DNA of 41,143 nt from Clostridia bacterium (GTDB taxonomy: Bacteria; Bacillota; Clostridia; Christensenellales; Borkfalkiaceae), in contig JAFVQT010000015.1 in assembly GCA_017504655.1 (NCBI GenBank), positions 1 through 41,143 of the forward strand, given 5' to 3'. The notes beneath the pieces are model-generated. The model was not told the DNA's origin. It saw only the letters and a list, made by a program, of their open reading frames with translations, and searched no databases. Made by a program: the position numbers and the translations under genes. Below are positions 2,934 through 20,507 of this stretch, piece after piece (within the stretch, counting starts at the first letter, position 1; each line of letters starts with the position of its first letter).

Positions 2934-3899
2934 ATGTCAAATAATAAAGTCGATATAAAAGAAAATTATATTCGGGATTTAGACCAAGAATTGCTGTTGC
3001 TTCTTCTATTAGACCAAACAACCAAAAAGAATTTAATTTGGGCGACAGACAATTACAAAGCCTATGGTTATATGTCTTACGACTACATTACTGTGGCTGC
3101 TATTACAGGTTATCGTGGTTGCGTTATTAAACCCCGAATTGAAAAATCAAAAGCCGAGATACAAAAGCGTGTCAAGGATAAAGCAGAAGTGTTTACACCA
3201 GCTTGGGTTTGCAACGCACAAAATAATCTTGTGGATATAGCTTGGTTTGGATATCAACCCGTATTTAACGTTGAAACAAATAATCATTGGGATACTATAA
3301 AAACAAAAATTAGTTTTCCAGAAGGTAAGACTTGGCAGGATTATGTAAAGGCTAATCGTATGGAAATATCCTGTGGCGAAGCTCCGTATCTTGTTAGCAG
3401 ATATGATTCAGTTTCAGGTGAGATTATACCGTTAGAAGATAGAATTGGCCTGTTAGATAGGAAAGTTAGAATTATAAATGAAAATGTAAACTCTGATGAA
3501 GAATGGTTAGAGTGGGTAAAATGGTCTTTCAAAAGCGTATATGGTTATGATTGGCAAGGCGATAACGTTTTATTGGCAAGAGAAAACTTATTGTTCACGT
3601 TTATTGATTACTACGTTGCTCGTTTCGGACAGCACCCTTCAACTAAAATTCTTTTAGAAATAGCAGAGATAATTTCTTGGAATATATGGCAAATGGATGG
3701 TCTGAAATTTGTGATTCCAAACAGTTGCCATTCTCAAAAACCAATACAAATGTCGTTGTTTGGTGATGAACCAGAAGAACCTTGTATTGGGTGTGTAAAA
3801 AATAGTATAAAACAACATAACGGAATTTATTGCAAAATAAAAGATTGGACTACGGGTAGAGCTAATAAGTTTGTTAATCTTATTGGGAGGAAATCATGA
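2934..3899 (+). CDS. Restriction-modification subunit carrying part of an adenine methylase
   Basis: This 321-residue protein resembles proteins annotated as restriction endonuclease subunit M. Visible blocks are EVFTPAWVC at 85-93, like methylase motif X (FTP), CGEAPYLVSRYD at 147-158, RIGLLDRKVRI at 170-180, and DWQGDNVLLARENLL at 206-220, like the SAM-binding side of gamma-class N6-adenine methylases. No NPPY motif is present here; it is in the next gene, which overlaps by four bases (ATGA). The two proteins are therefore likely to form one enzyme. Near the C-terminus QMSLF (272-276) matches the beta-clamp binding consensus, and Cys284, Cys287 and Cys300 could bind a metal. GAGG lies 7-8 bases before the start. 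The assignment is good at family level; the split-domain model is inference. Confidence 0.7.
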   Translation: MSNNKVDIKENYIRDLDQELLLLLLLDQTTKKNLIWATDNYKAYGYMSYDYITVAAITGYRGCVIKPRIEKSKAEIQKRVKDKAEVFTPAWVCNAQNNLVDIAWFGYQPVFNVETNNHWDTIKTKISFPEGKTWQDYVKANRMEISCGEAPYLVSRYDSVSGEIIPLEDRIGLLDRKVRIINENVNSDEEWLEWVKWSFKSVYGYDWQGDNVLLARENLLFTFIDYYVARFGQHPSTKILLEIAEIISWNIWQMDGLKFVIPNSCHSQKPIQMSLFGDEPEEPCIGCVKNSIKQHNGIYCKIKDWTTGRANKFVNLIGRKS

Positions 3900-6800
3900 A
3901 AAACCAATTTCATTCAACATTTGAATATAAGTTAATATATGTTTTTCGTATAAATGATGAAAACCACAAGAATTTAGTAAAAATCGGTGATGCGACAATT
4001 CATACTGATTGCTCTTATGATGCCCTTGTGCCTAATTGTAAAGAATTAAATCAAGCGGCAAAAGCCAGAATCAATACATATACTTCTACCGCTGGTATTG
4101 TTTATGAATTATTGCATACGGAAATTGCTATTAGGGTTAAAAACGGTCAGCTCAAAGCATTTAGAGATAAGGCTGTTCATAGTGTTCTGATTAGATCGGG
4201 CGTTAAACGTCATTTATTCCCAACGGAAAGTCAAGGACAAGAATGGTTTGAAACGGATTTAGCTACGGCAGTACGTGCCATTCAAGCTGTCAAAGATGGT
4301 ATGTCTTCATTAAATTCCGAAGATATATCACAGGATGATTCGCCTATAATTTTTAGACCAGAGCAAAAGAAAGCAATTAAAGATACACTTGCGCAGTTCA
4401 AAAGCGGTAATAGAATGCTTTGGAACGCAAAAATGCGTTTTGGTAAAACGCTCTGTGCTCTTGAAGTAGCAAAGCAAGCAGATTATAAGAAAATTCTTAT
4501 ATTTACACATAGACCAGTAGTTAGTGACGGTTGGTTTGATGATTTTCATAAGATTTTCAAAGGAACTACATATAAATTTGGCTCTAAAACTAAAGGTGAA
4601 ACAATAGAAACACTTATCACAGAAGATTGTCCTTTTGTGTATTTTGCTTCTATTCAAGATTTACGTGGTTCTGCTGCTGTTGGTGGAAAATTTGATAAAA
4701 ATGATTACGTCTTTTTAATCGACTGGGATTATATTATCGTTGACGAAGCACACGAAGGAACGCAAACAACCTTAGGACAAAAAGTTTTAGAGGCAGTTTT
4801 AAGCAATAATCCTAAAAAAACTCCGAAGTTACTTGAACTTTCAGGAACACCTTTTAATCTTCTTAATGATTTCAAGCAAAGTGAAATTTATACTTGGGAT
4901 TACATTATGGAGCAAAAGGCAAAAGCCGAGTGGGGTATCAATCACTTTGGTGACTCTAACCCGTATGAAGAATTGCCACAACTTGAAATATTTACATACG
5001 ATTTGGATAAGCTTATTCCGGGCTTTATTGACGTAGAAGATAGTGCCTTTAACTTTAGGGAATTTTTCAGAACTTGGACGGGAGATATTAAAAAAGATTA
5101 CAGACCTCTTCCAGAAGGCGCAAATATTGGTGATTTTGTGCATAAAGATGACGTTAATGCTTTTCTTTCTTTATTATGCACAAGTGATGAATATACAAAT
5201 TTCCCTTATTCTACCGAAGAGAACCGTTCTTATTATAGGCATACATTGTGGATGCTACCGGGCGTGAAAGAAGCCAAAGCTCTTTCTGCTTTAATGCACG
5301 AGCATCCTGTGTTTGGTAACGGACAATTCTTTAAGATTGTCAATGTTGCTGGTGACGGTGATGAAGAGCAAAACTACAAAGATGCTTTAGATGCTGTTAG
5401 AACTGCTATTGGTGAGAATCCAGACGACCATTATACAATTACCTTGTCTTGTGGCAGACTTACAACCGGTGTTAATATTCCTGAATGGACTGCGGTATTT
5501 ATGCTTGCAGGTTCTTTCTCTACGTCCGCAGCAAATTATTTGCAAACAATATTCAGAGTACAAACTCCTGCAAATATCAATGGTAGAATGAAAACACATT
5601 GCTCAGTGTTTGATTTTGCTCCTGATAGAACTCTTAAAATGGTAGCAGAAGCTGGTCATTTATCATTAAGAACGGGCAACGTTGGTAATGATAGAATATT
5701 GATGGGTGAGTTTTTGAATTTCTGCCCTGTTATTTCGATATCGGGTTCAAATATGTCGCCTTATAATGTTGATAGCTTGTTACAACAGTTAAAGAGAGCT
5801 TATACAGATAGAGTTGTAAAAAGCGGTTTTGAGGATACACATATTTACAATGATAATCTTCTTAGACTTGACGATATTGACCTTCAAGATTTTGAAGAAT
5901 TAAAGAAAATAATTGGTGCAACAAAGCAAACCAAGCCTACGAGTGAAATCGTAATAAATGATACAGGCTTGACTGATGAACAGTATGAAGAATTAGCACG
6001 CATCGAAAAGAAGAAAAAGAAAGACTTAACGGAAGAACAAAAAGCACTTCTTGAAGAACGCAAGAAAAAACGTGATAATGCTCAAAAGGCTATGGATATT
6101 TTGCGTGGTATTTCTATAAGAATACCTTTAATGATTTATGGCGCAGATATTCCCGTTGATAAAGACATTACGCCTGATAATTTTGTGGATTTAATAGATG
6201 ATTCCTCTTGGGAAGAGTTTATGCCAAATGGTGTAACGAAAGAAAAATATAGGCTTTTTGCAAAGTATTATGAGCAGGACGTCTTTGTTGCAGCTGCACG
6301 TCAAATTCGTCAGATGGCATTGTCAGCTGATGACCTTGCTCCCACTGAACGTGTTAAGAAAATTGCTGAAATATTCAGTATTTTTAGAAACCCAGATAAA
6401 GAAACGGTATTGACACCTTGGCGAGTAGTCAATATGCACCTCAGTGATTGTTTGGGTGGATATAGATTCTTTAATGAAGATTATACTGATACATTGGACG
6501 AGCCTGTATTTGTTGACCGTGGCACAGTAACAACAGATTTGTTTAAGAACAATGACGTTAGAATACTTGAAATAAATTCTAAAACTGGTCTTTATCCTCT
6601 TTATGTTGTATATTCTATATTCCGTCATAAAATGGATAGTTTATCTAAGTATGATTACGAGCATAGACCTATAGATGATATTTGGCGTGAAGTGGTTGAA
6701 GAAAATTTATTTGTTATCTGTAAAACTCCTATGGCTAAGGCAATTACGAAAAGAACGTTGCTCGGCTATAAGAGAGGTAAAATAAATGCACACGCTTTTG

Positions 6801-7915
6801 ATGATTTAATAAATCAATTAAAAGAGAAACCACAGCAATTTAGAGAAAAGGTATTAAGAGGAAGTTTTTGGAACAAAGGAGTGAGAAATATGGTGTTTGA
6901 TGCAATAGTAGGCAATCCGCCTTATCAAGAAGCGGTTAGCAGTAGCGATTCCAATAGGTCATTAAGTAGGCAATTATTCCCTGAGTTTATGAAAGCCTCT
7001 ATTTTGCTAAAACCTAAATATGCTTCTTTGATTACGCCTTCCCGTTGGTTTGCAGGTGAAGCTCAAGATGGTTCTTTTATATCTTTAAGAGAGTTCATTC
7101 AGTCAAATAACCATATTAAAAAAATTACACATTTTCCTGTTGGAAATGATGTTTTTGATAATGTAGTTATTAAAGGTGGAGTAAGTTATTACCTCTATGA
7201 AGAAGGATATGTTGGAGAAGTAAGTTTTTCAAATTCTCGAAACGGAGTATTGATAACTCAAGATAGACCGTTGTTTGAAGAAGGTTTGGATATTATTATC
7301 AGTAATAGTGATGATGTCGAATTGATTTCCAAAGTTACAAAAGAAGGTTTTGTATCTTTGACGACCATTACAAAAGGGAGAAATGCTTTCGGCATTATTG
7401 GAAAGCCCGAAGTATTACGTAAAATAATCCATAAAGAAAAATTTGTTGGTGCGGTTAAATTACAATGCAAAAACGAGGAGATTTATTGGGTTGAAGCAAA
7501 AGAAATAATTAAAAATGAAGATTTAATGAGAAAATATAAAGTATTTATCTCAAAATCGGCTGGAGATCCTTCAAAAGACGCAAAAGTAATTGGACGAGCT
7601 TATGTGGGCGAACCTTTTAGTGCTTGTTCCGATTCTTTGATACCTATTGGTGATTTTGACAATTTGCTTGAAGCAGAGAATTTACGGAAATACTTATCGA
7701 CTAAATTTTTGCGATATATTGTAAGCATTTTGAAAGTTTCGCAGAACGTTACTCAAATAGTTTACAAATTTGTTCCTATGCAAGATTTTACGGCGCATTC
7801 TGATATTGATTGGACTAAATCTGTTGCAGAAGTAGATCAACAGCTTTATAGAAAATACAATTTGTCAGCGGAAGAAATTGCCTTTATTGAAGAAAAAATC
7901 AAGCCTATGGAGTAA
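3896..7915 (+). CDS. Fused nuclease-helicase-adenine methylase restriction enzyme
   Basis: The 1,339-residue protein has several parts. Residues 1-140 look like a T5orf172/GIY-YIG-type nuclease (LVKIGDA, KARINTYTSTAG, then EWFET). Residues 150-560 form an SF2 helicase-translocase with motif I AKMRFGKT (178-185), DEAH (283-286), SGTP (316-319) and motif VI QTIFR (550-554). After a lysine-rich linker comes the methylase motif IV NPPY (1007-1010) with a following region that would hold target recognition. Enzymes of this layout translocate on DNA, methylate the host site and cut unmodified DNA. The SAM-binding half appears to reside in the preceding gene. The start follows GGGAGG. A SIR2-like gene begins three bases after the stop. 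Confidence 0.8.
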   Translation: MKNQFHSTFEYKLIYVFRINDENHKNLVKIGDATIHTDCSYDALVPNCKELNQAAKARINTYTSTAGIVYELLHTEIAIRVKNGQLKAFRDKAVHSVLIRSGVKRHLFPTESQGQEWFETDLATAVRAIQAVKDGMSSLNSEDISQDDSPIIFRPEQKKAIKDTLAQFKSGNRMLWNAKMRFGKTLCALEVAKQADYKKILIFTHRPVVSDGWFDDFHKIFKGTTYKFGSKTKGETIETLITEDCPFVYFASIQDLRGSAAVGGKFDKNDYVFLIDWDYIIVDEAHEGTQTTLGQKVLEAVLSNNPKKTPKLLELSGTPFNLLNDFKQSEIYTWDYIMEQKAKAEWGINHFGDSNPYEELPQLEIFTYDLDKLIPGFIDVEDSAFNFREFFRTWTGDIKKDYRPLPEGANIGDFVHKDDVNAFLSLLCTSDEYTNFPYSTEENRSYYRHTLWMLPGVKEAKALSALMHEHPVFGNGQFFKIVNVAGDGDEEQNYKDALDAVRTAIGENPDDHYTITLSCGRLTTGVNIPEWTAVFMLAGSFSTSAANYLQTIFRVQTPANINGRMKTHCSVFDFAPDRTLKMVAEAGHLSLRTGNVGNDRILMGEFLNFCPVISISGSNMSPYNVDSLLQQLKRAYTDRVVKSGFEDTHIYNDNLLRLDDIDLQDFEELKKIIGATKQTKPTSEIVINDTGLTDEQYEELARIEKKKKKDLTEEQKALLEERKKKRDNAQKAMDILRGISIRIPLMIYGADIPVDKDITPDNFVDLIDDSSWEEFMPNGVTKEKYRLFAKYYEQDVFVAAARQIRQMALSADDLAPTERVKKIAEIFSIFRNPDKETVLTPWRVVNMHLSDCLGGYRFFNEDYTDTLDEPVFVDRGTVTTDLFKNNDVRILEINSKTGLYPLYVVYSIFRHKMDSLSKYDYEHRPIDDIWREVVEENLFVICKTPMAKAITKRTLLGYKRGKINAHAFDDLINQLKEKPQQFREKVLRGSFWNKGVRNMVFDAIVGNPPYQEAVSSSDSNRSLSRQLFPEFMKASILLKPKYASLITPSRWFAGEAQDGSFISLREFIQSNNHIKKITHFPVGNDVFDNVVIKGGVSYYLYEEGYVGEVSFSNSRNGVLITQDRPLFEEGLDIIISNSDDVELISKVTKEGFVSLTTITKGRNAFGIIGKPEVLRKIIHKEKFVGAVKLQCKNEEIYWVEAKEIIKNEDLMRKYKVFISKSAGDPSKDAKVIGRAYVGEPFSACSDSLIPIGDFDNLLEAENLRKYLSTKFLRYIVSILKVSQNVTQIVYKFVPMQDFTAHSDIDWTKSVAEVDQQLYRKYNLSAEEIAFIEEKIKPME

Positions 7916-8949: not shown

Positions 8950-9327
8950 TTATTCAAATAACTTATCGAAATAGCCACTATTCCAAGAGTCTTTTCTTAA
9001 TTTTAGATATCGTTCTACGATTTCTTTATCAAATTGCAAATTATGGTGTTTTAGCATAATATCTGCGACTATTTCATTTTCTTTATCTGAGATTCCTTTG
9101 CATTTAAGGTCTTTTGCGTTTGAATAATTTAAGAAAATTAAACATTCGTCATATAATTTTTTGTAGTCTGGGTTTTCTAATAGATTTAAGTTAGCTCTTA
9201 GATAACCAAAAATTCTTGTAATAAAGCTACGAGGTTTTTTAATATTTGTATTTGCTAATGCAAAAAGTAAAATTTCAGCTTCAAGGTTTTTTAATAATTT
9301 TTTATTTTTCACAAGTAAACCTATCAA
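8950..9327 (-). CDS. Hypothetical protein paired with the SLOG gene
   Basis: This is a 125-residue protein rich in leucine, lysine and asparagine, probably all-alpha. No family is recognised, and there is no signal peptide or clear membrane segment. The TTG start overlaps the stop of the upstream SLOG gene (TTGA), so the two are translationally coupled. A GTG at 9312 with ATAGG just before it is an equally possible start, giving a protein five residues shorter. It lies between the SLOG gene and a shared terminator and so probably works with the SLOG protein. Function unknown. Confidence 0.55.
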   Translation of the reverse strand: MIGLLVKNKKLLKNLEAEILLFALANTNIKKPRSFITRIFGYLRANLNLLENPDYKKLYDECLIFLNYSNAKDLKCKGISDKENEIVADIMLKHHNLQFDKEIVERYLKLRKDSWNSGYFDKLFE

Positions 9328-9785
9328 TATAATTCGTAAGTTCCCTTATATAAGTTAGTATAAGGCTTTTTATGCTTATGTGCATAAAGTAGGGTGTTAT
9401 AAGCTCCGCCGTAATGAGTAGAAACATAGCCAATAACATAGTCGGCATTGTTTACCATCCATTCATTACGTTTCGATATAGCGAATTTTAGTGGTACACT
9501 TTCAATTTCGGGGTAAAGAATCTCGTCATATTCTTTTTCAAAATAATCTTTTCTATCGTTAAGCCATTTGTTCAAATAGGGCGTAACGAAAATAACCCTT
9601 GCGTCTGGGTGTTGTTCCTTGAATTTCTTTGCACAATCTTTAGCAAAATAATCAAAGTTGCCGTAGCCACCAAGATAAAAGTCGATTTGTTGACCTTTAG
9701 ATATTTCTTCTAAAAGGCTTAATAATCGGCTTTCGTCGTCCTGCTCAGCTCTAAAATTTGAATGTCCGCAAAAAGTGATAATCAT
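9324..9785 (-). CDS. SLOG-family nucleotide-ligand protein
   Basis: The 153-residue product matches the SLOG (SMF/DprA-LOG) Rossmann-like family: TFCGHSNF near the start, FYLGGYGNFD at 36-45, an acidic YPEIESVPLKFAISKRNEWMV-type block near 92-112 and YVSTHYGGAYNT near 119-131. SLOG proteins are thought to bind or process nucleotide derivatives, and they recur in mobile elements and conflict systems. The enzyme reaction is unknown here. A minus-strand promoter with TTGCTT (9849-9844) and TATAAT (9826-9821), spaced 17, precedes the gene. A divergent XRE regulator starts 160 bases away. The downstream 125-residue gene is coupled to it. Confidence 0.65.
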   Translation of the reverse strand: MIITFCGHSNFRAEQDDESRLLSLLEEISKGQQIDFYLGGYGNFDYFAKDCAKKFKEQHPDARVIFVTPYLNKWLNDRKDYFEKEYDEILYPEIESVPLKFAISKRNEWMVNNADYVIGYVSTHYGGAYNTLLYAHKHKKPYTNLYKGTYELY

Positions 9786-10237: not shown

Positions 10238-10561
10238 TTATACGGTTTGCGTTATGTCGGGTATATAAATCTTTTCCCCAACTATAATTGCGTGGTATTC
10301 AACGTTCCCAACTCTGTAGGTAGTGGGGATAGGCTTGCCTTTTGCGTTAGCTCTAAGTATGTATTTATCTGAAATCTCGGTATCTTTTTCAAAGTTTCCA
10401 TCTAAAAACTTTTCTTCATTACCGACTTCAAGTATCTTAAAGCCTCGTTTTACAAGGTCTGCTGAAAATTGCCACAATTTGTCGAAAAGTCCGTTACTAT
10501 CCATAATAACGGAACAGTCAATTTCTGGGTGATAAGCTGTAATTCTAAAGTAATTTGCCAT
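10238..10561 (-). CDS. Hypothetical mobile-element protein
   Basis: This 107-residue soluble protein starts MANYFRITAYHPEIDCSVIMDS, with a predicted mixed alpha/beta fold and no membrane segment. The AAGGAGG site overlaps the stop of the PcfJ-like gene upstream, so it is the last gene of the long minus-strand operon, just before a terminator. No domain is recognised. Its placement beside PcfJ/PcfK-like genes suggests a role in transfer or maintenance of the element, but nothing in the sequence shows the activity. Confidence 0.65.
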   Translation of the reverse strand: MANYFRITAYHPEIDCSVIMDSNGLFDKLWQFSADLVKRGFKILEVGNEEKFLDGNFEKDTEISDKYILRANAKGKPIPTTYRVGNVEYHAIIVGEKIYIPDITQTV

Positions 10562-10575
10562 ATTTTAATTCCTCC

Positions 10576-11886
10576 TTAGGCTGCTATTTTCTTCATTTGA
10601 CGTTTAGCGTATGGTAGCCACTTATGATGAACGAAGGAGAGTATTTCTTCTGATGGTTTCGTGTCGTGGTCGCCATAACACTGTAAAACTTTCTTTTCTT
10701 TTATCGAGTATTCCACTGTAACAAGAGGTGTTTCGGGGCTTTCTTTAGTTCGTATGAAGAATATAAGAGATTTTTCATCAACAAATTTTTGGTCGTAACC
10801 CATACCACCTACACAGTGGTGTAAAAGCCTGCCTTCATTTTTAAGGTCAGTAGGCGATTTGGCAATAATGCAAACAAAGCCGATTTTATCAAATTCCAAA
10901 GCTCCGTATTTTTCAGCAACGGCTCTGAAATTATCGTAAAACTGTTTTCTGTTTTCTTCATCACGTTTAGCTTGTTCGCTACGATATTCGTCAGTTCGTA
11001 TATCGTGCCAACGTTTGAAATCGTGAGGGTAGCGGTTTTTCTCAATACTCATATCAATTCCCAAGTATTCACACGCTCTTTTGTAGTCGTTATAGCTGTA
11101 AAAGTTCGTTTTCTGCTTTTCGATATAAGCAAGGAATTTATCCGTTTCGCCCTTCACGAAAGCACGTAAGTTTTCAAGCGAAGAAGCGTGGTAAAATTCT
11201 TTACGTTTGTTTTGTAGTTGTTGCAAAGATTGAAAATCTTTTTTCGTCTTAAACGCATCAATAATAACTTTTATGTCGTATGGTGCATATCTCAGACTTA
11301 ATCTGTTTTTGCCGAGCCATTTTCTAAAGGCTTTGCTTTCTCTTGCGAGCTTCAATATCTGTTTGCTAAGAGCAATATTGGAAAGACCGAGTTTTGTTAT
11401 AAATTCGACTTCGGGATATTGTCTATAAGTCCTAAGATATTTCAAAGTGTTTTCGTAAGAATAAAGCTCAACGGCGCTATATCTAAATTCGGGGATAGTA
11501 GTGATATATTCTGGGTTTATTCTTATAGCAAAAGGATCGAAAGCCTTTTCAGGGGTGCATCTATACCATTTGCCATCTTCATACCAAGAACGTTGTTTAG
11601 TCAAGCCCATATCATACCAGCCGACCATATAACCGGCGATATAATGACATTCAATATCTCTTGCAAAGCATTCGTTAGAATCTACACCGTGAACGGCAAC
11701 CTGCTTTAAGTAAACTTGTCCTTGATAGCTTCTTGCAGCAACCGTTACTTTGACAAGCTCACCGTCATTTTTAGTAAAGTAGGCGTAAAAGCGTTTTTGA
11801 TTATATGCAAGGTTACGGCTTTTATCCAGCTTTATTATTTTCTTTGCTATGTATTTGGGAATAGGCTTAATTTTATCAATTTTCAT
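10576..11886 (-). CDS. pcfJ: PcfJ-like protein
   Basis: This 436-residue protein carries the PcfJ C-terminal signature: GRLLHHCVGGMGYDQKFVDE, then LIFFIRTKESPETPLVTVEYS and VLQCYGDHDTKPSEE. The HCVG histidine and cysteine are conserved in the family. The N-terminal half is basic and unassigned. PcfJ was named in the conjugative plasmid pCF10 transfer region; its biochemical activity is not well defined. I take ATG 11886 because GAGG lies eight bases before it, inside the end of the upstream gene; a longer frame to 11934 overlaps that gene and lacks a site. It is co-transcribed with the PcfK-like fusion, repeating the pcfJ/pcfK pairing of plasmids. Confidence 0.75.
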   Translation of the reverse strand: MKIDKIKPIPKYIAKKIIKLDKSRNLAYNQKRFYAYFTKNDGELVKVTVAARSYQGQVYLKQVAVHGVDSNECFARDIECHYIAGYMVGWYDMGLTKQRSWYEDGKWYRCTPEKAFDPFAIRINPEYITTIPEFRYSAVELYSYENTLKYLRTYRQYPEVEFITKLGLSNIALSKQILKLARESKAFRKWLGKNRLSLRYAPYDIKVIIDAFKTKKDFQSLQQLQNKRKEFYHASSLENLRAFVKGETDKFLAYIEKQKTNFYSYNDYKRACEYLGIDMSIEKNRYPHDFKRWHDIRTDEYRSEQAKRDEENRKQFYDNFRAVAEKYGALEFDKIGFVCIIAKSPTDLKNEGRLLHHCVGGMGYDQKFVDEKSLIFFIRTKESPETPLVTVEYSIKEKKVLQCYGDHDTKPSEEILSFVHHKWLPYAKRQMKKIAA

Positions 11887-11891
11887 ATCAA

Positions 11892-12899
11892 TTACCTCGC
11901 AATTATGTCCTTTCCAAAGATATTTAAGAGCCAATCAGGTACTTTCAAAGACGGTCTTTCAATCTCGTGAACTTCACCGTTTTCGTCAACGTAAGTAAAT
12001 TCGTCAATCCAATGCTTTTCAGGCTCTTCCGTCTTTTTAACTCGTTTTTCCAATACCTGAATATCGTCTTCCTTTTCAACGATTACAATGTCGTAATTGT
12101 AATGTAATTTAAGGAAATACTTTTCAGAGCAGTGATAGGGGAAACCAACCATAGGAACACGGCTTTCTAATCCGCAATCACGTCCCGTAAGGGTTAATTC
12201 CAGCTCGTCTGCTATGAGTTTTGCATTATCGCCTAAAACTTCATAAAAGTCGCCTAAACGATAAACAACGATAGAGGATGGGTATTTGCTCTGTATATCT
12301 AAATACTTGCTATAAAACGGACTTAAAGGCTTTGCAGGAGCAGGTTTAATTTCTTCTTTGTGAAGTTCAGCCATAATTTCCTGTATTTCTTCCTCAGACG
12401 GCATATCGTCATCTTCGTCAACCGTCGTTTCTGTTTTGATGGTAGGTAAGGTGTCCGTTTCTTCACCGTTAGCGGCAATCATATCAAAGAGAGAAAACTG
12501 TGCTTGAGGTTCAGCTTTCTTTTTCGGCGCAGGAGTAGTAACGGTGGTAGTGGTTTTTGCTTTTTTAGTTTCTTTCTTAGGCGGTGTATATGGCGTTCCG
12601 TCAAGGTTGAAATAATTACCTTCGATAGCATCTTCTTCAAAGAAGTGTATCAGCCAGCCGAATACGACCATATCATCAACGTAAGTTCCAATAGCACCTT
12701 TATCAGCCAACTTCTTAGCTTCTTCAAGTGCGTATTTCATAAAACCTTTAAGGTCTTTTTTCATAATGAGCGTAGTTCCGTCTTTTTCAACGGTAACGCC
12801 GTTATTGATTTTTTCTGCAAGGACGTCGCTTGCATTTTCTTCTAAATATTTCAAAAGGCGTAATTCGTCGTTTCCTTTTGTTTCAAGATTGATTTTCAT
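11892..12899 (-). CDS. pcfK: PcfK-like protein fused to a MutS mismatch-recognition domain
   Basis: Residues 1-107 are PcfK-like (DLKGFMKYALEEAKKLADKG, then VVFGWLIHFFEEDAIEGN). A lysine/threonine/proline linker follows, containing QFSLF (134-138), a close match to the beta sliding-clamp binding motif. Residues 192-276 match MutS domain I: YRLGDFYE (213-220) holds the Phe-x-Glu used to read mismatches, followed by LTLTGRD, RVPMVGFPYH and a closing strand. The MutS clamp and ATPase domains are absent, so this cannot be a complete repair protein. It precedes the PcfJ-like gene by five bases. A DNA-structure or clamp-guided role in transfer or replication of the element is inferred. Confidence 0.75.
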   Translation of the reverse strand: MKINLETKGNDELRLLKYLEENASDVLAEKINNGVTVEKDGTTLIMKKDLKGFMKYALEEAKKLADKGAIGTYVDDMVVFGWLIHFFEEDAIEGNYFNLDGTPYTPPKKETKKAKTTTTVTTPAPKKKAEPQAQFSLFDMIAANGEETDTLPTIKTETTVDEDDDMPSEEEIQEIMAELHKEEIKPAPAKPLSPFYSKYLDIQSKYPSSIVVYRLGDFYEVLGDNAKLIADELELTLTGRDCGLESRVPMVGFPYHCSEKYFLKLHYNYDIVIVEKEDDIQVLEKRVKKTEEPEKHWIDEFTYVDENGEVHEIERPSLKVPDWLLNIFGKDIIAR

Positions 12900-12930: not shown

Positions 12931-12962
12931 AGAAAAAGCCCTTTCATATTTCAGAAAGGGAC
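12931..12962 (-). terminator. Minus-strand terminator inside the operon
   Basis: Read on the minus strand, CCCTTTC (12960-12954) pairs with GAAAGGG (12946-12940) and is followed by CTTTTTCT. It overlaps the 3' end of the 79-residue gene and separates it from the pcfK-like gene, so it probably attenuates transcription between the two parts of the operon. Confidence 0.6.
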
Positions 12963-13190
12963 TTCACGCCAGATACCTCTAATAACCTCTTTTCGAGTAA
13001 TGGGGAATATCTGCCATTTAACGTTTATAATTGGCTTGCCGTTATCATCAGGCGGTGGATATTTGTAATACATTTCTTTAATCTGTTTCGCCTGTTGATA
13101 AGTTCTTGTTTTGAACCTATGTACGTACTTTTTTCTTTTTACGGGATAACATACTTTATAACCGTATGGATTGTTTAGATTAGGCTTCAT
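12951..13190 (-). CDS. Small basic hypothetical protein
   Basis: This 79-residue, strongly basic protein is rich in Lys, Arg, Tyr and Pro (YGYKVCYPVKRKKYVHRFKT). The region RFKTRTYQQAKQIKEMYYKYPP resembles the arm-type beta strands and helix of DNA-binding domains such as those of integrases, but it is too short to assign. GAT-rich sequence before the start holds only a weak AAGG-type site. The gene end overlaps a terminator stem. It is part of the long minus-strand operon; function unknown. Confidence 0.55.
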   Translation of the reverse strand: MKPNLNNPYGYKVCYPVKRKKYVHRFKTRTYQQAKQIKEMYYKYPPPDDNGKPIINVKWQIFPITRKEVIRGIWREVPF

Positions 13191-16309: not shown

Positions 16310-16873
16310 TCACCTCCGTATTTCAACAATTCCACCTGAGTATTCTCTAAAACCGTCATAGGACAGTTCTTCGCCATACCGGGCGTAGTCGATATAATTC
16401 TCAAGCCAATCAGGTATTTCGTGACAGCAGACGTCGTGAATAAAGTGGTGTCCTAAGTCATACCAATCAAAATCGGGGTAGAGGTACATATCGCTATCCC
16501 AATTTTCTTCATCTTCTTCAACACGGCGTTTCCATTCCTGATAACCTTCGATTTCACAAAAGATTTCAGCACGCTCGTATTTATCGTCATCGTCTAAAAT
16601 GCCAGACTTTTTAAGCAGTTCAAATAGCGTTTGTGGGTGAACGTAATCCCAATTAACGCCGCTATCACAAGGAAAATTCTCAATGTCCTGTATGAAAAGC
16701 TCTTCATCAATACCGTCAAGCTCAAATCCCTGTGCTTTAAGTTCTTCTTCGATTTCTTCCCAATCTTCATAATTGTTCAGACAAATCCATTTAGAGCCTA
16801 AAGCTCTTTCGTTACACTCGTTATACGAACCCCAAGAGCCGATAACTATTTGAATATCGTTACTTCTAATCAT
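16310..16873 (-). CDS. ardA: ArdA-like antirestriction protein
   Basis: The 187-residue protein has the ArdA layout: an N-terminal strand VIGSWGSYNECNERALGSKW followed by the acidic helix DWEEIEEELKAQG, a middle HPQTLFELLKKSGI segment, and the C-terminal IPDWLENYIDYARYGEEL block typical of the third domain. It is very acidic, as expected for a DNA mimic. ArdA proteins occupy type I restriction enzymes and protect incoming mobile DNA. I start it at ATG 16873 with AAGGAGGT just before; the longer frame to 16930 runs through a small upstream gene. Carriage beside the element's own restriction system is notable. ArdA annotation is strong, the exact target enzyme unknown. Confidence 0.75.
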   Translation of the reverse strand: MIRSNDIQIVIGSWGSYNECNERALGSKWICLNNYEDWEEIEEELKAQGFELDGIDEELFIQDIENFPCDSGVNWDYVHPQTLFELLKKSGILDDDDKYERAEIFCEIEGYQEWKRRVEEDEENWDSDMYLYPDFDWYDLGHHFIHDVCCHEIPDWLENYIDYARYGEELSYDGFREYSGGIVEIRR

Positions 16874-16964
16874 CGTAATTACCTCCTTCGATAGCGATTT
16901 TTTCTTCGATACGGTCTTTTGCTTCTTCAAGCAATTCTTCTAAATCCATAATAGGCTTATCCAT
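16866..16964 (-). CDS. Very small acidic protein, 32 residues
   Basis: ATG 16964 overlaps the upstream stop by one base (TAATG) and is preceded by AGGAGGTG. The frame encodes MDKPIMDLEELLEEAKDRIE and ends in EGGNYDD, overlapping the ArdA start by eight bases. It predicts a single acidic helix. It may be a real micropeptide or a coupling leader that carries ribosomes into ardA. Confidence 0.4.
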   Translation of the reverse strand: MDKPIMDLEELLEEAKDRIEEKIAIEGGNYDD

Positions 16965-17219: not shown

Positions 17220-17519
17220 TTAGTCTGCAATTTTGTACCAAATGTTGTATTCAATGGTAATTTCTCTTGTTTCTTTACTACCGTTTTCTTGTTCAAATTC
17301 AACTTCACGGATTTCGTAATAGCCACCTTTGTATTCCTTATTTCTGTTAGGGATAGAGTGGCAATCTTTGACGCAATCTTCAAATACCCTAATATACGGT
17401 GTACCTTTCTTGCTCATACAAGCAATTACCAAGTCTGTATCGGTTATATAACCAATACCTGTTAATTTGGAAATTTCACCTTTTACATACCTTGAAACTC
17501 CGTAAACTACTTTTTTCAT
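17220..17519 (-). CDS. Hypothetical protein, first gene of the long operon
   Basis: The 99-residue protein (MKKVVYGVSRYVKGEISKLT, then YITDTDLVIACMSKKGTPYI and a beta-rich charged C-terminal half) is predicted to be soluble and mainly beta. TGGAGGT lies about nine bases before the ATG. Its 5' leader contains a hairpin at 17546-17567. As the first gene after the promoter region it could be an early-expressed factor of the element, which is inference. No family is recognised. Confidence 0.6.
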   Translation of the reverse strand: MKKVVYGVSRYVKGEISKLTGIGYITDTDLVIACMSKKGTPYIRVFEDCVKDCHSIPNRNKEYKGGYYEIREVEFEQENGSKETREITIEYNIWYKIAD

Positions 17520-18326: not shown

Positions 18327-20507
18327 ATGAGTAACGGAAATATGTGCTGCGAAAAATGCGGCGGCAATTTAACACTTAAGGGTGACGTTTACGTATGCCA
18401 TTATTGTAATAGCCAGTACGCAGATGTAATAATAGAAAAAGCATATAAAAAGCTCGAGTTTTCTTTAAGGGAAAAGTTTGGTGATATAGTTCAAGAAGAA
18501 ATTGTAAAAAGGGAGCAGGAAAAATTCCTCCCCCTTCTTCGCCAATTGTGGGAAAAATCTCAAGAAAAATATATCGACAGCAAGGCAATTCTTTCAATCT
18601 GTAGCAAAATAAAAGATATTTATCCCGATCACTTTTTAGCCAATTTTTACGAGGTGGCAAATAGCGGAACGGTTGCTCAAATCAACGAATTTTTAAATGC
18701 TATCGACGTTAAAGAAAATGCGATTTTCGTTGAAGACGTAGTAAGCTTTTTGGTAAAGTCACTCGAAATGGGCAACGTGGCTTCGCTTAACTATTTGGTA
18801 GAAAGGGCATATAAAAACACTAATATGGCAGAATTTGAGTCTTATTCAACAATGATAGAATCCGAGGCTCAAAAGGTAAACTCGGGCTTGTATAAAACCG
18901 ACCTCCCGAGGGACGTTTTTATTGCCTATTCCAGCAAGGATTTACCCGAGGTTTTAAAGCTTGTTGAGGTTATCGAGTCGCAGGGGCTGACCTGCTTTTT
19001 AGCAATGCGAAATTTGCGCCACGGCAGGGGCTCGGTTGCAAATTACGAGGCAGAAATACAAAAAGCAATAGATAATTCGGGTATAGTAATCTTTATTTCT
19101 AGCCGTAATTCTCGTTGTTTAGATTGCGATGCAATAAAAGTAGAAATACCATACATAAAAAAGAAAGATTTAGAAAACATACCTTTGGGCTATAAAAACA
19201 ACTATGCAGACGTAAGGCTTTTAGGTTATAAAAAGCCACGTATTGAATATCGTTTAGATAACGCCCCAACAATTTTAGCCGATAGAATATTAAAAGAATT
19301 TTTCGCAGGGCTTGAATACACAAAGTCGGTAGACGATACCTTAGAGCGCATTGCAAGCATTTTAACCGACGGCTTTGGCTCTCGCAATTTAGAAGAGAAA
19401 GAACAGCCTGTTAGAGGGTTAACTGAAGAAGAATTAAGAAAAATGCTTGAGCAAATGCAGGCAGATGAAAAGCGCAAGGAAGAAGAAAGGATAGCCGAAG
19501 AAAAGCGCAAAGCCGAGGAAGAGGCAAAAAGACTTGCTGAGGAAAAACGTAAAGCCGAGGAAGAGGCAAAAAGACTTGCCGAAGAAAAACGTAAAGAAGC
19601 AAAAAGGCTTGCCGAAGAAAAGCGCAAAGCTGAGGAAGAGGCAAAAAGGCTATCAGAAGAAAGGCACTTGGCAGAAGAAAAACGTCTTGCTGAAATAAGG
19701 CTTGCTGAAGAAACAAAACGTGATTGCATAATCAAAAATGGCAATTTATTGAAATATGAAGGTGTAAACACGAAAGTTGTAATACCCGATTGTGTAACAA
19801 AAATAGATGTTTCTGCGTTTTGTTATTGCAGAAGTTTAACAAGCGTTGTTATTCCCAATAGCGTAACGAGTATTGGTGAGGGGGCGTTCGAAAGTTGCGA
19901 CAGTTTAACAAGCGTATATTATACCGGTGAAATAGAGGATTGGTGCAATATTACGTTTAGTAATTCTTCTGCAAACCCATTAAATAACGGAGCAAGCTTA
20001 TATATAAATAACCAGCTTGTAACCGAATTAGTTATCCCAAATACTGTAACAGAGATAAAATCTTATGCTTTCTATAATTGCGGCAGTTTAACAAGCGTTG
20101 TTATTCCCAATAGCGTAAAGAGTATTGGTGAGGGGGCGTTCGAATATTGCGACAGTTTAACAAGCGTAGTAATAGGGGATAGCGTAACGAGTATTGGTAG
20201 TTCTGCGTTCTCTGGTTGCTACAGTTTAACAAGCGCAGTAATAGGGGGTAGCGTAACGAGTATTGGTACTTATGCGTTCTATCATTGCGAAAGTTTAACA
20301 AGCGTAGTAATAGGCGAAAGTGTAACTACAATTAGCAGAGATACGTTTATGCTTTGCTATAAGTTGGCTATTTATTATAATGGTGACAAAATACCAAGAG
20401 GTTTCGAAAAAGGATGGGATGGTGAACGCCCTGTTTACGTAAAGCGCAATGGCGCGTGGGTGCAGGTTAAAAAGACGTTTCTTGGCGGTTGGAAGCCTGT
20501 AAAATAA
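18327..20507 (+). CDS. Zinc-ribbon, TIR, coiled-coil and leucine-rich-repeat protein
   Basis: The 726-residue protein has four parts. A zinc ribbon uses Cys8/Cys11 and Cys24/Cys27. After a helical region to about 190 comes a TIR domain (195-300): DVFIAYSSKD, CFLAMRNLRHG, and IVIFISSRNSRCLDCDAIKVE, where Glu273 sits at the place of the catalytic glutamate of NAD-cleaving TIRs. A coiled coil of repeated AEEKRKAEEEAKRL-type units spans 365-465. BspA-type LRR_5 repeats (about 483-675) and a basic tail follow. No signal peptide or membrane segment is seen, so it is probably cytoplasmic. LRRs would sense and the TIR act, as in immune proteins, but that is inference. GAGG precedes the start. Confidence 0.8.
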   Translation: MSNGNMCCEKCGGNLTLKGDVYVCHYCNSQYADVIIEKAYKKLEFSLREKFGDIVQEEIVKREQEKFLPLLRQLWEKSQEKYIDSKAILSICSKIKDIYPDHFLANFYEVANSGTVAQINEFLNAIDVKENAIFVEDVVSFLVKSLEMGNVASLNYLVERAYKNTNMAEFESYSTMIESEAQKVNSGLYKTDLPRDVFIAYSSKDLPEVLKLVEVIESQGLTCFLAMRNLRHGRGSVANYEAEIQKAIDNSGIVIFISSRNSRCLDCDAIKVEIPYIKKKDLENIPLGYKNNYADVRLLGYKKPRIEYRLDNAPTILADRILKEFFAGLEYTKSVDDTLERIASILTDGFGSRNLEEKEQPVRGLTEEELRKMLEQMQADEKRKEEERIAEEKRKAEEEAKRLAEEKRKAEEEAKRLAEEKRKEAKRLAEEKRKAEEEAKRLSEERHLAEEKRLAEIRLAEETKRDCIIKNGNLLKYEGVNTKVVIPDCVTKIDVSAFCYCRSLTSVVIPNSVTSIGEGAFESCDSLTSVYYTGEIEDWCNITFSNSSANPLNNGASLYINNQLVTELVIPNTVTEIKSYAFYNCGSLTSVVIPNSVKSIGEGAFEYCDSLTSVVIGDSVTSIGSSAFSGCYSLTSAVIGGSVTSIGTYAFYHCESLTSVVIGESVTTISRDTFMLCYKLAIYYNGDKIPRGFEKGWDGERPVYVKRNGAWVQVKKTFLGGWKPVK

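Follow-up and report, generated by a model that had tools for sequence, protein, structure and literature searches.

Gene organization of the locus

The window analysed here, which is the whole stretch of 41,143 nucleotides from a Clostridia bacterium, contains a compact run of minus-strand genes from about 17.5 to 10.2 kb. In this run lies a gene that joins a PcfK domain to domain I of MutS (MutS_I), with the gene of PcfJ downstream of it. The features of the locus are the following:

17220..17519, minus strand: first conserved gene of the operon, 99 amino acids, present in 11 of 16 loci
16310..16930, minus strand: ArdA antirestriction protein (PF07275, E 4.1e-14), in 6 of 16 loci
12951..13190, minus strand: conserved operon gene of 79 amino acids, in 8 of 16 loci
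11892..12899, minus strand: PcfK-MutS_I fusion gene, open reading frame of 335 amino acids
12585..12899, minus strand: PcfK domain, residues 1-105 (PF14058, PHROG 7445, AlphaFold)
12324..12584, minus strand: disordered linker, residues 106-192 (pLDDT mostly 30-55 at residues 110-190)
12486..12500, minus strand: predicted beta-clamp-binding motif QFSLF, residues 134-138 (conservation and shuffle test)
12042..12323, minus strand: MutS domain I, residues 193-286 (PF01624, Foldseek)
12240..12248, minus strand: putative Phe-X-Glu mismatch-reading triad F218-Y219-E220 (conservation)
11895..12041, minus strand: C-terminal tail with a conserved short helix at its end (LLNIFGKDIIAR), kept in relatives
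10576..11886, minus strand: PcfJ gene (PF14284, E 6e-29), 5 nt downstream of the fusion gene, start codon assigned by homology
10238..10561, minus strand: conserved operon gene of the MANYFRITAY family, in 10 of 16 loci
3896-7915: type IIG restriction-modification enzyme, 1339 amino acids, flanked by two genes of undefined function

PcfJ follows PcfK directly in all 16 loci compared, the window included, and the same order is found in pCF10 and in other annotated plasmids and phages. The genes that flank the operon vary between loci and are often defence genes, such as the type IIG enzyme and a TIR-LRR protein in the window, a type II restriction-modification set in locus L096 and Pbe/Ssp/BrxP-like genes in locus L037. 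Among the window proteins scanned, profiles detected neither a relaxase nor a type IV secretion system; we therefore infer transfer of the element from its relatives and cargo.

Domains of the fusion protein

The MutS_I domain matches PF01624 at residues 194-285 with an E-value of 3.6e-19 and a score of 69.5 bits (cut-off 20.6), and the closest solved structures by sequence are MutS chains, which cover residues 193-276. The PcfK domain matches PF14058 at residues 47-93 with 27.0 bits, a score that just equals the curated cut-off of 27. PHROG 7445 covers residues 45-140, the PcfK part, with an E-value of 1e-10, and a profile built from the relatives of the fusion picks up the PcfK protein of pCF10 (E 1.6e-6). 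The NCBIfam models for PcfK/AcrIIA9 match neither the fusion nor six stand-alone PcfK proteins. MutS domains II to V have no Pfam match in the 335 residues, and the core, clamp and ATPase domains of MutS are absent in searches with Pfam, NCBIfam and PDB, the remainder of the protein being PcfK, linker and tail. PcfK and MutS_I are the only domains to pass the Pfam cut-offs, and neither ArdC-N nor any other catalytic domain typical of polyvalent proteins is among the matches. The first-pass annotation, made from the letters of the DNA, had proposed a MutS mismatch-recognition domain that lacks the ATPase and clamp domains; the domain search that it suggested as a check returned a significant MutS_I match and no MutS domain beyond the first.

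The full-length AlphaFold model has two confident domains separated by the low-confidence linker, with a short helix predicted at residues 137-143, beside QFSLF. The model of MutS_I superposes on E. coli MutS (1wbb) with a Foldseek E-value of 1.6e-7 and an rmsd of 1.4 A over 82 columns. The PcfK domain modelled alone reaches a pLDDT of 92.5 and a pTM of 0.81, and its fold search gave nothing convincing in PDB or BFVD; RdgC was considered as a fold relative and set aside, its best VIA-align Z of 3.4 being too low for use. A tail resembling the C-terminal one of the fusion is also present in relatives that lack MutS_I (loci L029, L030 and L032).

A predicted clamp-binding motif conserved in the PcfK family

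The consensus of beta-clamp-binding motifs is QL[S/D]LF, in which positions 1, 4 and 5 matter most (PMC12309361). The QFSLF sequence of the fusion fits a consensus of this type and is conserved within a flexible region: in an alignment of 27 relatives only ten columns are invariant, Gln134 and Phe138 among them, and Ser136 is almost invariant, with the surrounding linker otherwise variable. The strict motif Q.[SD][LMI]F occurs in 29 of 47 non-redundant PcfK tails, against 0.08 expected when each tail is shuffled, and in just 6 of 323 other open reading frames from the same neighbourhoods, while the looser motif Q.[STDN][LMIF][FL] occurs in 44 of the 47 tails against 0.55 expected.

Stand-alone PcfK proteins from pCF10, from streptococcal and Bacteroides phages and from Bacteroides plasmids carry the motif near the C-terminus. 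The protein of pCF10 ends in DEQIDLFECV, that of E. faecium in QQISLF, that of Bacteroides phage BS-TP3 in QQMSLF and those of Bacteroides plasmids in QPSLFDLGL. Streptococcal plasmid proteins (S. equinus, S. salivarius) have KQLDLFS, Streptococcus phage tails have GQLDLFG, two E. faecalis variants have QIKLF and EIDLF, and a phylum-level relative ends in QLSLF. The clamp motif is thus conserved across PcfK proteins of two phyla, Bacillota and Bacteroidota, on plasmids as well as on phages. Since stand-alone PcfK ends in the same motif, the fusion contains a complete PcfK, motif included, which is extended by MutS_I and the tail.

The match of QFSLF to the clamp motif, as first annotated, is therefore real and far above chance, and the lack of conservation in homologues that was named as its refutation is not what the 44 tails display; the motif belongs to the C-terminal end of PcfK and not, as had been annotated, to the linker. 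The host genome encodes the sliding clamp DnaN, and the fusion very likely docks on it through QFSLF, judging by the conserved sequence. Of the recruitment of the host replisome suggested earlier, the part that concerns the sliding clamp is strongly suggested by this motif.

The putative mismatch-reading site of MutS_I

The sequence YRLGDFYE occupies residues 213-220 of the fusion, where Phe218 and Glu220 align with Phe36 and Glu38 of E. coli MutS. In the E. coli enzyme these residues stack on the mispaired base and form a hydrogen bond with it, and the change of Glu38 to Gln abolishes discrimination (PMC3848065). The retention of both residues in YRLGDFYE, pointed out in the first-pass annotation, extends to every sequence compared, since no exception occurs among 34 mobile copies and 19 MutS proteins. 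Arg214, Gly216, Asp217, Phe218 and Glu220 are invariant in all 34 mobile MutS_I domains, and His256 is present in 97% of them. Mobile copies have largely lost the residues typical of MutS at positions 195, 196, 203, 225 and 248 and at several positions close to the domain end, a pattern that suggests the release of contacts to the missing MutS domains and the maintenance of the DNA-reading loop. Pairwise dN/dS values of MutS_I range from 0.00 to 0.15, which corresponds to purifying selection.

The invariant Phe and Glu and this selection make the reading of mispaired DNA by the fusion plausible, and the isolated MutS_I domain is likely to bind DNA. Domain I acts inside a dimeric ring in MutS, so that a lone MutS_I may bind DNA weakly.

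Distribution and phylogeny

Among 201 genomes from the family of the host, the fusion occurs in about 24, in separate assemblies, and the aligned relatives are 38-97% identical. A further copy is present in the gut "phage" record MT835493, which also holds ordinary bacterial genes. In the class-level sample, an order-level relative (G613) has PcfK and the motif, and its MutS_I, though very divergent, retains GDFYE; in the phylum-level sample any PcfK match occurs in only 3 of 299 genomes. Viral contigs gave no matches with the single protein as query and 30 loci with an alignment, and the plasmid search with the fusion as query returned mainly ordinary MutS genes.

In the MutS_I tree, which is short and poorly resolved internally, a branch (98/95) separates cellular MutS from the mobile copies, apart from a single divergent viral copy that falls with MutS; the data neither establish nor reject one origin for the MutS_I of the fusions (AU p 0.229). 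On the PcfK tree, relatives without MutS_I sit among the fusions, which suggests losses or exchange. The fusions of loci L023 and L025 have nearly identical MutS_I domains (dN 0.07) and strongly diverged PcfK domains (dN 0.40), a difference that suggests exchange of domains between elements.

Related genomes also encode giant polyvalent-type proteins with MutS_I, in open frames of up to about 4000 amino acids. A clamp-type motif follows MutS_I in all eight that were inspected (QISLF, QASFF, QFSLF, QLSMF three times, QMSLF and QKSFF), and their domain order and context differ from those of the PcfK fusion. The presence of MutS_I with a clamp tag in two types of protein suggests that tethering makes a lone mismatch reader useful.

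Comparison with known systems

The fusion shares with MutS domain I (PF01624) the fold, the Phe-X-Glu reader and 47-49% identity to the MutS of the host over about 80 amino acids, and differs from MutS in having no connector, core, lever, clamp or ATPase domains. With the PcfK/AcrIIA9 family (PF14058) it shares the domain, the C-terminal clamp motif and the PcfK-then-PcfJ order; other PcfK proteins stop soon after the motif, whereas in the fusion MutS_I and a conserved tail come after it.

MutS-I domains of polyvalent proteins are known from mobile elements of Bacteroidetes and Firmicutes, and binding to single-stranded or mismatched parts of the entering DNA was proposed for them (Iyer et al. 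2017, PMC5512222). ArdC-N accompanies them in about 80% of cases, and the proteins are larger (PMC5512222). The fusion resembles these in carrying MutS-I within a multidomain protein of a mobile element, but it is a PcfK protein of 335 amino acids with a clamp motif, and PMC5512222 mentions neither PcfK nor clamp motifs. Transposases with a QLxLF beta-clamp motif at the C-terminus are also described (PMC4549789); like the fusion they are mobile-element proteins with a clamp motif, and unlike it they have neither PcfK nor MutS_I.

The fusion combines a clamp motif, a long disordered tether and a reader, as Msh6 does, and the arrangement is convergent. In Msh6 the order is clamp motif, tether and then the MutS_I mismatch reader. 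Msh6 differs from the fusion in being a full MutS homologue with an ATPase and in using PCNA. The PCNA motif of eukaryotic Msh6 and Msh3 is N-terminal and lies on an unstructured tether, according to a statement in PMC4942255 that cites Shell et al. 2007.

MutS-I on mobile elements, PcfK itself and clamp motifs on transposases were thus already known. A literature search, confined to open-access papers and so without most subscription journals, returned no description of a PcfK-MutS_I fusion, of a clamp motif throughout the PcfK family or of MutS_I repeatedly paired with such a motif. PcfK proteins are widespread on mobile DNA and bear an anti-CRISPR label, and no settled mechanism was found for them. 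A conserved clamp-docking tag gives them a concrete candidate partner, DnaN, which is cheaply testable, and could explain how proteins of this type reach entering DNA.

Proposed function and alternatives

We propose, with a probability of roughly 0.5, that the fusion is a clamp-tethered binder of distorted DNA, encoded together with ArdA and PcfJ in an anti-defence operon, that works on newly replicated DNA of the element. QFSLF would dock the protein onto DnaN, the flexible tether would present MutS_I to the DNA, and this domain would insert its Phe and Glu into kinked, mispaired or partly unpaired DNA, the tethering supplying the local concentration that a weakly binding lone domain I would miss. 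The site of action would be element DNA that is being copied, for example during complementary-strand synthesis after entry or during replication of the element. PcfK would be the ancestral effector and MutS_I an added reader of DNA structure. An early role in establishment, as part of an anti-defence operon, is favoured by the presence of ArdA and PcfJ and by the published proposals for MutS-I of polyvalent proteins, and we have moderate confidence that the purpose is the protection or processing of element DNA. Evidence against the tethered reader comes from three relatives, within the sampled family, that have PcfK and the motif without MutS_I.

A bolder and more tentative form of this proposal is that PcfK/AcrIIA9 proteins are a clamp-tethered family of plasmids, phages and integrative elements in Bacillota and Bacteroidota, one lineage of which took up a MutS reader to blind or to exploit the mismatch surveillance of the host at the replication forks of the element. 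If so, mobile elements would have rebuilt the layout of Msh6, with clamp motif, tether and reader, without the repair machinery.

Interference with host mismatch repair, also suggested in the first-pass annotation, is possible but less likely as the main role. As an antagonist, the fusion would take mismatches and the clamp from host MutS, or displace MutL from the clamp, so that heteroduplexes arising from entry of the element, recombination or error-prone replication escape rejection. It has retained the residues that read mismatches and lacks both the ATPase and the domains that signal to MutL, as expected of a dominant-negative reader, and the host encodes a full-length MutS and a MutL in two pieces (contig ends or frames). 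However, the motif is found throughout PcfK proteins without MutS_I, so the link to the clamp cannot have arisen just to mimic MutS, and MutS_I is missing in some relatives. A pattern scan of the host MutS, together with inspection of the C-terminus, also revealed no QxSLF-type motif, which makes competition for its clamp site uncertain.

An anti-CRISPR function, in which the PcfK half is a Cas9 inhibitor of the AcrIIA9 type that the clamp concentrates on replicating DNA while MutS_I recognises R-loops or the unwound target, is unlikely. AcrIIA9 carries the Pfam PcfK domain (PMC6739104), and the NCBI label of pCF10 PcfK and its relatives is "Cas9 inhibitor AcrIIA9 family protein", but this name is a family label and not a test. 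No Cas9 turned up in the host genome, and the protein exceeds the cut-off in 31 of the 201 family genomes and in 4 of the 24 fusion carriers, against 3.7 expected, so the fusion is not associated with Cas9.

It is also improbable that MutS_I has lost DNA reading and is a mere scaffold for folding or protein-protein contacts, the clamp motif being what matters. The changes at several further MutS-conserved positions and the absence of MutS_I from some relatives would fit such a role, but the five invariant residues of the reading loop and the low dN/dS values oppose it. A chance motif or an assembly artefact has a negligible probability, for although the Pfam score of PcfK barely reaches its cut-off in the fusion, the shuffled tails and background reading frames rule out the former and the recurrence in about 24 genomes the latter.

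Other genes of the neighbourhood

Clamp-type motifs occur in further proteins of these loci. Methylase-like proteins adjoin PcfK at 2266-3162 of L035 and at 6933-7829 of L100, with QLSLF at the extreme C-terminus and QLSIF near the N-terminus, and their homologue in L093 matches an N6-methylase profile; several proteins of these elements may therefore dock on the clamp. In the window, a protein of 321 amino acids at 2934-3899, upstream of the type IIG enzyme, has QMSLF at residues 272-276.

A Rep_ORF2/G2P replication protein at 1309-2358, which has homologues near the fusion copies in L096 and L100, is possibly the replication initiator of the element. A protein with weak similarity to YpsA/SLOG (9324-9785, E 0.0017) is found beside the operon in four loci. 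Weak inverted repeats were all that a search of the operon for a hairpin target of MutS_I yielded. The TIR-LRR protein at 18327-20507, which adjoins the anti-defence operon, gave no PADLOC match at 1e-5; its 726 amino acids contain a TIR domain (PF13676, E 2.1e-7) and BspA-type leucine-rich repeats (E 1.1e-48), a layout like that of animal and plant immune receptors.
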